From assembly GCA_004144175.1 (NCBI GenBank), contig SEFT01000024.1:1-46083 (forward strand): a stretch of 46,083 bases of DNA. Direction: 5' to 3'. Numbering within the stretch: position 1 is the first letter of the stretch; each line of letters begins with the position of its first letter. The notes beneath the pieces were generated by a model. The model had not been told where the DNA came from. It made no database searches and saw nothing but the letters and a program-made list of their open reading frames with translations. The stretch is from Sphingobacteriales bacterium. Lineage in GTDB: Bacteria; Bacteroidota; Bacteroidia; Chitinophagales; Chitinophagaceae. The position numbers and the translations under genes were made by a program. This document shows positions 34,555-38,923 of the stretch, piece by piece.

Positions 34555-35211
34555 TCATTTATCCAGCACCCGCCTGATGGCATCGTAGCTGGTGCTGGTG
34601 CGGTTACGCAGGTCGGCATTCTCTTGCAGCTCGTCTATGGCTGCCAGTATATCATCGGGTGGGTAGTTGTTGCAGATGTAGATGCTCTGGTCAATGAGCG
34701 GGGACATTAAGAAACGCTCCATGCCCGGCGACCGCCACGATATCATACGCTTCAGCCATTTATGCATTTCTATATCATTTCTGTTGTACCCTTTGCCGAT
34801 GTATCGTTTGGTTTCCTCATCTTCAGGCTCGGGCGCGGGTGCCTGCTCTGCGGGTGTCTCATCGGTGGTTGGCTCAGGTGCTACTATTACAGCAGCCTGG
34901 CGCGGTTTGCTACGCCTTGTATAGCTAAGGGTCGATACCAGGTGGTTATCTTCAACCGCCAGCAACTCGTATACCGCTATCATATCTTCCAGCAGTTGTG
35001 CAAAGGCTGCACGCTCCATGCCTACCTGGCCGCCCAGGCGTTTCATACGCTTTTCAGTGTATTCGATGCCCATGCGTTCTTCGCGGTGCATTATCTCCAG
35101 TATCATCCAGTAGGCGCCATAGCCCGCGGGGCCATGGTCGCCTACAAGGGCTGCTATCTTTTCGTTATGACGCGTATTTACGGAGTGGCGGAGTGTCTTT
35201 GCTCGGGGCAT
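34555..35211 (-). CDS. DUF4373/Lin1244-like protein, phage replication-type
   Basis: 218 residues. The N-terminal ~100 residues (HSVNTRHNEKIAALVGDHGPAGYGAYWMILEIM...) have the pattern of the DUF4373 domain, found at the start of phage and mobile-element replication proteins: a short 'organism depth, Gly-Gly-Tyr, whole-helix' winged-helix-like module. A Pro/Glu/Ala-rich linker (about 112-140) follows, then a C-terminal helical part ending YDAIRRVLDK. No DnaC or helicase partner gene, integrase or capsid gene is nearby, so it looks like an orphan or remnant. The minus strand has a near-consensus CATCTTTG box at 35233-35240, 21 nt before the ATG. Confidence 0.6.
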   Translation of the reverse strand: MPRAKTLRHSVNTRHNEKIAALVGDHGPAGYGAYWMILEIMHREERMGIEYTEKRMKRLGGQVGMERAAFAQLLEDMIAVYELLAVEDNHLVSTLSYTRRSKPRQAAVIVAPEPTTDETPAEQAPAPEPEDEETKRYIGKGYNRNDIEMHKWLKRMISWRSPGMERFLMSPLIDQSIYICNNYPPDDILAAIDELQENADLRNRTSTSYDAIRRVLDK

Positions 35212-37982: not shown

Positions 37983-38016
37983 AACAGCCGCGCTCCCAAA
38001 GCGCGGCTGTTTTTTT
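37983..38016 (+). terminator. Terminator of the T9SS cargo gene
   Basis: Perfect 11-bp stem AACAGCCGCGC / GCGCGGCTGTT (37983-37993 with 38001-38011) and a T7 run. Confidence 0.92.
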
Positions 38017-38020
38017 GAGT

Positions 38021-38207
38021 CCAATATAGTTCGTCATTACGAGCGGAACGTAGTGGAGCGTGGTAATCTCCCGAGCCCATGCAGTCCGCTTAATCAAAGC
38101 GTGCGTAACTCCGACGAGGCCAGTTGCAAATGCTCAGGAGATTACCACGTTCGCGCTATCACGCGATGCCAACGCTTCGCTCACTCGTAATGACGAGCTA
38201 TTATTGG
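38021..38207. repeat. Left copy (L) of the GIY-YIG-associated structured repeat
   Basis: 187 bp that begins CCAATA and ends TATTGG. Its outer arms (38021-38071 and the inverse of 38137-38207) share GTCATTACGAG and CGTGGTAATCTCC. A central part carries the pair GAGCCCATGC / GCAAATGCTC. Its first 92 bp match the inverse of 38832-38923 at about 80-85% by eye. It lies 73 bp upstream of the GIY-YIG ATG. The flank CGGAATGC-y-ATT (38223-38234) recurs after the right copy (38949-38960). Confidence 0.85.
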
Positions 38208-38280
38208 GCGCATTCGTAATGGCGGAATGCTATTAGGCATCCACAGAAATTCCAACTACATTGTAACAACTACTACATCT

Positions 38281-38586
38281 ATGAACGGCAAAGGCGGCTA
38301 TGTATATATCCTCACCAATACGCACCATACGGTGCTGTATATTGGTGTCACCGCCCACTTGTTCAGCCGCATATACGATCATCGCACCAGGCGTTATAAG
38401 AATAGTTTTACAGATAAGTATCAGCTCACTAAACTTGTTTATTATGAACCGCATGATCTGATAGAGCCTGCCATAGAAAGAGAGAAGCAACTGAAAGACT
38501 GGTCGCGGCGAAGAAAGGAAACACTGGTCGCTGGTATGAACCCCGAGTGGCGCGATCTGTGGGAAGATATCAAGGATTGGTTCTAA
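38281..38586 (+). CDS. Small GIY-YIG nuclease-family protein
   Basis: 101 residues, a stand-alone GIY-YIG domain (UvrC-N/SLX1-like fold). It has the paired motif YVY (7-9) ... YIG (20-22), Arg30 and His34 in LFSRIYDHR, and the metal-binding Glu near 67 in AIEREKQLK, followed by a basic KDWSRRRKE and a C-terminal MNPEWRDLW. All expected catalytic positions are present. There is no DNA-binding extension. The ATG at 38281 is favoured; the frame extends to 38227, giving 18 unlikely residues. It is bracketed by copies of one structured repeat (38021-38207, 38604-38688, 38759-38923), which suggests the repeats are its substrate or that gene and repeats form one element. Function is otherwise unknown. 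Confidence 0.85.
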   Translation: MNGKGGYVYILTNTHHTVLYIGVTAHLFSRIYDHRTRRYKNSFTDKYQLTKLVYYEPHDLIEPAIEREKQLKDWSRRRKETLVAGMNPEWRDLWEDIKDWF

Positions 38587-38603
38587 TGGGCTTTGTTGAG
38601 TGG

Positions 38604-38688
38604 CGCATGCCTTGATTAGGCGGACTGCAAGGGCTGGGGAGATACCCACGGACTGCCGCGTTCGCGGGCAGGCTCGGTATGACGAATT
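38604..38688 (-). repeat. Half copy (R1) of the structured repeat, right after the GIY-YIG gene
   Basis: Read on the minus strand it has GTCATACCGAG ... CGTGGGTATCTCC, GCAGTCCGCCTAATCAA and ends GGCATGCG. It matches the first half of the left copy, starting 17 bp after the GIY-YIG stop codon. It contains an internal hairpin CTGCCGCG / CGCGGGCAG (38653-38671 approx.). Confidence 0.75.
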
Positions 38689-38714
38689 TCTGTTTGGCGA
38701 GGCACATTAAGCAT

Positions 38715-38790
38715 GTCATACCGAGCGAGGCACATCAAGGCCGTCATACCGAGCAAGCCCAATAGAGATTCGTCATACCGAGCGAGGCAC
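38715..38790 (+). repeat. Three short units GTCATACCGAGC
   Basis: Copies at 38715, 38743 and 38772 share GTCATACCGAGCrAG. An inverted copy is at 38671-38683. These are the arm ends of the larger repeat, the third being the left arm of the right full copy. The spacing is 28-29 bp, but there are only three units and no conserved spacer or repeat length, so this is not a CRISPR. Confidence 0.75.
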
Positions 38791-38923
38791 GAGCGTGGGT
38801 ATCTCCTGAGCCTATGAAATTGGCTTCATCAGGGTTACGCAAGCCTTGATCGTACGGATTGCATAGGCTAGGGAGATTACCACGCTTCACTACGTTCCGC
38901 TCGTAATGACGAATTACTATTGG
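38759..38923. repeat. Right full copy (R2) of the structured repeat
   Basis: 165 bp from CCAATA (38759) to TATTGG (38923). The left arm is of the TACCGAG/GGGTATCTCC flavour and the right arm of the TTACGAG/GGTAATCTCC flavour. The central pair is AGCCTATG / CATAGGCT. The right half is the inverse of the left element's first 92 bp. Together L and R2 bracket the GIY-YIG gene as imperfect inverted repeats. Confidence 0.85.

Follow-up and report, generated by a model that had tools for sequence, protein, structure and literature searches.

The stretch of DNA analysed here (the window; 46,083 nucleotides, contig SEFT01000024.1 of the Chitinophagaceae assembly GCA_004144175.1, positions 1 to 46,083 of the forward strand) carries a stand-alone GIY-YIG nuclease gene among several copies of a palindromic repeat. 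The gene, a candidate to encode a mobility enzyme, lies at 38281-38586 (+) and specifies a protein of 101 amino acids; the original prediction had its sequence and coordinates right, and Pfam assigns the protein to PF01541 (E = 6.1e-13). One full repeat copy (copy A, 38021-38207, +) precedes the gene and another (copy B, 38759-38923, −) follows it, and each is an inverted pair, or dimer, of CGTC-tagged units that begins with CCAATA and ends with TATTGG, as had been noticed at first reading. From a locus scan, with coordinates counted on the sequence, we placed in copy A a unit that reads GTC-ATTAC...GTAAT-C at 38033-38068 (+) and a second unit of the ATTAC flavour at 38140-38194 (−), and in copy B a unit of the ATACC flavour at 38772-38803 (+) and one of the ATTAC flavour at 38875-38910 (−). 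The half copy expected after the gene's stop codon is also there, as a single ATACC-flavour unit directly 3' of the gene (38641-38683, −; locus scan and inverted-repeat matches), and a direct-repeat match marks a tandem pair of partial units (GTCATACCGAGC...), 28 bp apart, at 38715-38761 (+). The inverse match between the two full copies exists, but the 92 bp first given for it is too short: it extends over 130 nt at 82%.

The units share a simple plan: GTC, a stem strand made of AT and three variable bases, a loop, the stem's reverse complement and a final C. Both full copies fold far better than shuffled sequence (z of −9.81 for copy A and −8.37 for copy B). The two covarying flavours reported at the outset are likewise real, but the pairing of ATTAC with GTAAT, and of ATACC with GGTAT, takes place within one arm, and each arm is thus its own hairpin. 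In the fold of the copy whose arms differ in flavour, the long palindrome shows internal loops at the flavour positions. Between genomes the stem sequence varies while the pairing is kept. AT occupies the first two stem positions; although our detector requires this, the hairpin was formed by 177 of 287 GTCAT sequences less than 450 bp from the gene and by only 30 of 818 lying more than 2 kb away (66 Bacteroidota loci). For covariation, we picked units by their 5' side alone (GTCATxxCGA) and compared the dinucleotide immediately preceding the first downstream ATC(T/C) with the complement of xx. Partners were complementary in 52 of 59 units, against a mean of 10.2 and a maximum of 20 in 2000 shuffles, so the check for covarying pairs suggested with the original prediction came out in its favour. 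Pairing counts in a separate alignment (A4) are not independent evidence, because pairing at five positions was the basis on which its rows had been selected. A compensatory stem change was also found in an orthologous dimer of two Sphingomonas genomes, where both sides of one stem pair differ (AGC/GCT to GGC/GCC).

BLAST placed the long repeat at only four sites in the window's own genome, two of them in the window and one each on contigs 32 and 4, and the remaining GIY-YIG genes of that genome are distant. Among 14 relatives in the genus, we found no orthologous place that could serve as an empty site for the window copy; the matches were to neighbouring coding sequence. The contig 4 copy (L004, near 1850-1960) lies close to a gene start resembling the window open reading frame at 34555-35211 (−; MPRAK..LRHS...NEKIAALVGDHGPAGYGAYWM).

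Protein searches detected homologues of the nuclease in 92 of 244 Chitinophagaceae genomes at E 1e-10. We examined 40 further homologous loci outside the window's genome, 20 kb each, that had been chosen for contig room and not by their repeats. Units occurred at 3.75 per kb within 150 bp of the gene and at 3.5 per kb between 150 and 300 bp, compared with densities per kb of 0.063 (2-4 kb), 0.051 (4-7 kb) and 0.041 (7-10 kb) farther out and a chance density of 0.029 per kb in first-order random sequence; that is, 87 units in 24 kb within 300 bp as opposed to 31 in 615 kb beyond 2 kb, a roughly 70-fold difference. A unit lay within 400 bp of the gene in 29 of the 40 loci and on both sides in 22, while random positions in the same loci (n = 6289) had a unit in 3.2% of cases and units on both sides in 0.13%. 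At least eight of the 11 loci that the detector missed have variant units by eye (GTCTTTGC..., GTCACTGC...GCAGTC and others). A looser detector (GTC plus a perfect 6-bp stem of any sequence) found units at 6 of 40 loci in Bacteroidota, a poor yield because stems there close for only 5 bp.

Other samples of loci behaved similarly. In the first family search, 25 of 26 loci had a unit and 14 had units on both sides (26 of 30 were counted, leaving out the window's own locus, L005, and L009, L024 and L033, which a contig end cuts). Named genomes, scanned separately with the two detectors combined, had a unit at 35 of 42 loci and units on both sides at 24 (42 of 45 counted; L078-L080 were left out as partial or weak matches, here and in the covariation, tree and residue-conservation counts); L036, L042 and L043 duplicate the stretches L007, L021 and L011. 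The anticipated enrichment of the repeat at GIY-YIG genes thus stands far above background. In one locus (L020), ten CGTC units in one orientation are spaced 88-89 bp apart from −907 to −109 relative to the GIY-YIG gene, and similar arrays occur in L019 and L034.

The association is specific to one clade of GIY-YIG proteins. In a maximum-likelihood tree of 140 proteins, the homologues (112 rows, the window's own locus among them) were separated with support of 100/100 from another stand-alone GIY-YIG clade (28 rows), which we had seeded with an 87-aa gene that the window's genome carries on contig 43; the alignment has few columns, and we used the tree for this deep split only. Before tree building we dropped identical proteins and, on account of stops or length, 5 of the 120 test loci and 2 of the 30 controls. 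Within 400 bp, the homologue clade had units on both sides in 62 rows, on one side in 30 and on neither in 20, whereas the other clade, from the same family of genomes, had none with units on both sides, 3 with units on one side and 25 with none. By the strict detector alone, 2 of 30 loci of the other clade had any unit and 0 of 30 had units on both sides. Genes of this other clade lie head to tail, four each, at G055:C1:638659-640051 and G085:C1:4316280-4317708.

The window protein has the GIY and YIG motifs and the arginine and glutamate that define the GIY-YIG superfamily, of which it is a member. Across 34 aligned homologues, Y9, Y20, G22 and R30 are invariant and E68 and N87 are conserved in at least 90%; we take Y9, Y20, G22, R30 and E68 to be the catalytic residues of the fold. 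Its AF2 model (pLDDT 95.2) has the UPF0213 protein 1zg2 as top structural match (E 6e-4), in agreement with a profile search, followed by weak matches to Slx1 (E 0.03-0.25) and the UvrC nuclease domain. On the basis of these matches, it is plausible that the protein is a structure-specific nuclease. Stand-alone UPF0213 proteins (PDB 1zg2, 1ywl) resemble it in fold and size, although the other stand-alone clade that we tested is separate and largely without units; 1zg2 itself is not on that tree. Besides GIY-YIG, domain searches returned at most a sub-threshold T5orf172 match and did not identify the protein as an HUH tyrosine transposase. In 11 of 13 homologue pairs, those for which it was computable, dN/dS was 0.04-0.37, indicating purifying selection that keeps the protein functional. 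We also considered a defence gene, for which PADLOC gave no match, and a phage gene, for which PHROGs matches were weak (best E 0.002) and tblastn against 50,697 phage records returned none at E 1e-4.

The repeats themselves are not wholly new. The original prediction called the locus an undescribed element; the repeats belong to the CGTC REP superfamily described in 2013, and it is the link to the gene that we did not find in print. According to the accessible text of that description (Di Nocera et al., PMC3733652), CGTC REPs, described as "apparently lack[ing] a dedicated transposase", are not regularly accompanied by any transposase gene and never flank tyrosine transposase genes; the neisserial dRS3 is equated with CGTC-1, and the rickettsial RPE-6 and RPE-4 with CGTC-1 and CGTC-4, respectively. 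The authors suggested that a wide range of transposases mobilises these repeats and left to future work whether RAYTs or other transposases do so; GIY-YIG is not mentioned in the accessible text. Nor did we find an earlier report linking GIY-YIG to CGTC REPs or dRS3 in the open-access literature, preprints excluded, and GIY-YIG does not appear in the accessible parts of two later papers citing the CGTC work or of a 2024 MITE review. A literature search by the repeat's sequence letters yielded no repeat paper among the matches listed.

Like the CGTC REPs set out in the accessible part of the 2013 paper, dRS3 and RPE-4/RPE-6 among them, the present units have a terminal unpaired CGTC tag (the window reads TTCGTCATTACG; TGTC and CCTC are variants), a stem that starts with AT, inverted (HH) dimers in the window and at other loci, and an occurrence in many phyla. 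The four described families have stems of 8-9 bp and loops of 4-5 nt, whereas stems in the window close for 5 bp and then open into long loops; we therefore file the window units loosely with the CGTC superfamily and with none of its four families. In the Neisseria and Sphingomonas units, stems are longer and loops short. A terminator-like hairpin (AACAGCCGCGCT...AGCGCGGCTGTT, then a T-run) at 37983-38019 directly precedes copy A, which places this copy just behind a gene end, as is often the case for CGTC REPs in the accessible text (PMC3733652).

Detector-positive loci came from Bacteroidota, Pseudomonadota, Chloroflexota and Cyanobacteriota (a Planktothrix plasmid), and variant units were seen by eye only in Acidobacteriota (L076) and KSB1 (L047). 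In N. gonorrhoeae, a homologue (49% identity) lies inside an array of dRS3 and is bracketed by it. In S. meliloti, Planktothrix and Aeromonas, units flank the gene on one side or on both, a variant unit (CGTCGCCCCG...) brackets the Novosphingobium gene by eye, and the detectors found no unit within 400 bp of the Rhizobium copy. Three records labelled as N. gonorrhoeae and Aeromonas caviae plasmids (NZ_CP119140.1, NZ_CP119142.1 and NZ_AP026896.1; 2.2 and 4.9 Mb) look like chromosomes.

Comparison of related genomes suggested what moves. At six Sphingomonadaceae loci, a left hairpin (GTCATGCCAGC...GCTGGCATC) precedes the gene by about 55 bp, and at four of the six a right hairpin (GAGACCCCAGC...GCTGGGGTGAC) follows within 40-55 bp of where the match ends; the right side is arranged differently in L053 and L061. 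These copies are 72-83% alike in DNA, and the similarity ends near the hairpin tags. Their flanks lacked tblastx similarity in all nine pairs compared, while in two same-site pairs from other species the flanks do match. In the Sphingomonas locus L070, the gene and two terminal hairpins form a 375-bp element (query positions 744-1118) with no room for another gene, and matches to this query in three other Sphingomonas genomes spanned positions 743-1122 in two (82-81%, one of them from 736) and 743-1086 in the third. A gene-less 85-bp pair beside L070 corresponds to positions 1-34 plus 325-375 of the element (80 of 85 identical), and a 155-bp derivative in S. meliloti (L178) corresponds to positions 1-43 plus 257-368 of its element (148 of 155 identical). 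Gene-bearing and gene-less copies thus have common ends at both loci, as in an autonomous transposon with its MITEs. Both derivatives adjoin full copies and could be products of local duplication and deletion. On both strands, and with single units included, the 85-bp pair had 15-60 matches in eight of nine Sphingomonas genomes and 3 in the ninth, among the matches listed. For the alternative of a structured RNA, Rfam gave no match in the window, and the conservation of the ends in gene-less derivatives points to DNA.

The L070 site was then compared with 19 related loci. One carries a decayed copy, four carry units or pairs without the gene and six lack any CGTC unit; a GxxExxY gene is present at three and another inverted repeat at a further three, and two were unreadable. 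Two genomes that are gene-less at this site (G256 and G257) have the gene-bearing element elsewhere. Within flanks that are 95-96% identical, S. meliloti has the gene, whereas Sinorhizobium M103 lacks it and keeps a single hairpin. Syntenic Sphingomonas stretches of 16-18 kb yielded no exact junction, the flanks of the compared sites being too diverged for a target duplication to be read, and no clean empty site was found among relatives of the Novosphingobium plasmid. From these comparisons, gene and hairpins appear to move together as one small unit, and we see the window layout as an older, partly degenerate state of the Sphingomonas-type arrangement.

We ran a covariance model of the unit on 117 genomes. 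Among the matches listed, 66 genomes had a unit, namely 38 of the 43 that have the gene and 28 of the 74 that lack it (Fisher p = 8e-8, kinship ignored; absence of the gene defined at E 1e-10). A profile search of the 15 unit-richest genomes without the gene gave no hit in nine and 9 hits in the other six, none of which had a unit within 500 bp. The units of such genomes may be relics or may have been moved by something else, and units in gene-less genomes count against a strict one-to-one link between gene and unit.

Collectively, these data make it likely, in our judgment, that the repeats are CGTC-tagged REPs and that the GIY-YIG protein is their dedicated mobility nuclease, and they single out the nuclease as a strong candidate for the enzyme that a widespread DNA repeat family has been lacking. 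The shared neighbourhood of gene and units across phyla, the covariation and the gene-plus-hairpins unit are well supported by genome comparison. The layout first likened to REPINs with their RAYT transposase, with a GIY-YIG nuclease in its place, also gains support from the clustering, the covariation and the apparent joint movement. That the protein itself cuts the repeats is what we infer, and the same holds for the chemistry of movement. The protein would recognise the folded unit or a cruciform and nick both ends at the GTC tag or close to it. The segment so freed or copied, whether or not it includes the gene, would then be placed elsewhere, and gene-less pairs would be moved in trans. 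GIY-YIG enzymes hydrolyse DNA and are not known to form a covalent link to it, so joining would probably be left to host repair, unlike in the case of RAYT, an HUH tyrosine transposase that is the proposed mobility enzyme of GTAG REPs.

We weighed several other accounts of the association. A free-standing endonuclease might instead cut empty or solitary CGTC hairpins, with the gene copied in by homologous repair, in which case the repeats would be landing places and not ends. GIY-YIG is a classic homing nuclease fold (PMC1564403, accessible part), in relatives the same site holds solitary or gene-less hairpins (L202, L203, L207 and L214; L184), and the gene copies lie in clusters of units. However, Sphingomonas copies with unrelated flanks and similarity that ends at the outer tags call for the ends themselves to move, and homing alone leaves the 15-60 gene-less pair matches per genome (eight of nine genomes, among the matches listed) unexplained; we consider this account unlikely. 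Free-standing GIY-YIG homing endonucleases share the catalytic fold and selfish spread, but here there is no intron, and the gene has its own hairpin ends and gene-less derivatives. It is more doubtful still that the gene is cargo of an element moved by another enzyme, such as an IS200-like transposase acting in trans. The predicted nature of the protein's activity, the 28 of 74 genomes with units and no gene (among the matches listed) and the broad spectrum of transposases suggested as movers (Di Nocera et al., PMC3733652, accessible text) would all fit such a passenger. The 375-bp Sphingomonas unit, however, has no space for a second gene, the association is seen again in different phyla with proteins of 45-60% identity, purifying selection acts on the gene, and CGTC units are described in the accessible text as never flanking tyrosine transposase genes (PMC3733652).

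A housekeeping function, in which the nuclease removes or processes hairpins and cruciforms as Slx1 does and is kept nearby as a guard or regulator, draws on the weak Slx1 match (E 0.03-0.25) that follows UPF0213 (1zg2) in the structural search. The patchy presence of the gene (92 of 244 genomes), its 2-11 divergent copies per genome in 12 genomes and its changed places fit a selfish element better, and we regard this function as very improbable. We find it hardly credible that repeats and gene merely accumulate in the same intergenic sites, by chance or at a hot spot: the Sphingomonas site does take other repeat families too, but the random-position and other-clade controls speak against such a coincidence, and the derivatives keep the element's own ends.

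The dedicated-nuclease reading, by analogy, would have the system work like a REPtron, with small hairpins, one dedicated nuclease and gene-less pairs as satellites. REPtrons (GTAG REPs or REPINs with RAYT) likewise have inverted hairpin pairs around one small gene and gene-less pairs elsewhere; they differ in having an HUH RAYT and a GTAG tag, in place of which we find an unrelated GIY-YIG enzyme, which is not a RAYT, and a CGTC tag. If the GIY-YIG protein is the mover, it would be a new enzyme class for REPtron-like elements, and a very small enzyme class would join the known drivers of transposition. We lean, by a little, towards a class of mobile DNA that is new at the top level, hairpin-ended and with a stand-alone GIY-YIG nuclease as its sole enzyme, of which the CGTC REPs of many phyla, including dRS3, would be the non-autonomous population. 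On this view the recognition code would consist of the GTC tag and a freely variable, self-complementary stem, letting new flavours appear without loss of structure. A 100-aa protein with a known active site makes the enzyme question of CGTC REPs directly testable, and dRS3 and the palindromes of Bacteroidota and alphaproteobacteria, described separately, are now linked.

The intergenic Sphingomonas site of L070 lies directly after a terminator and looks like a hot spot for insertion. The GxxExxY gene found there (TIGR04256, E 1e-38; L210, 2233-2631, −; also in L212 and L219) lies between inverted repeats (AAGACACAAAGGCACGAAG / CTTCGTG...CTTTGTG) and looks like another small palindromic unit that bears a gene. 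A third, longer inverted repeat (CCCTCTCCC...GGGAGAGGGAGGGAGCC) occupies the same site in L211, L213 and L215.
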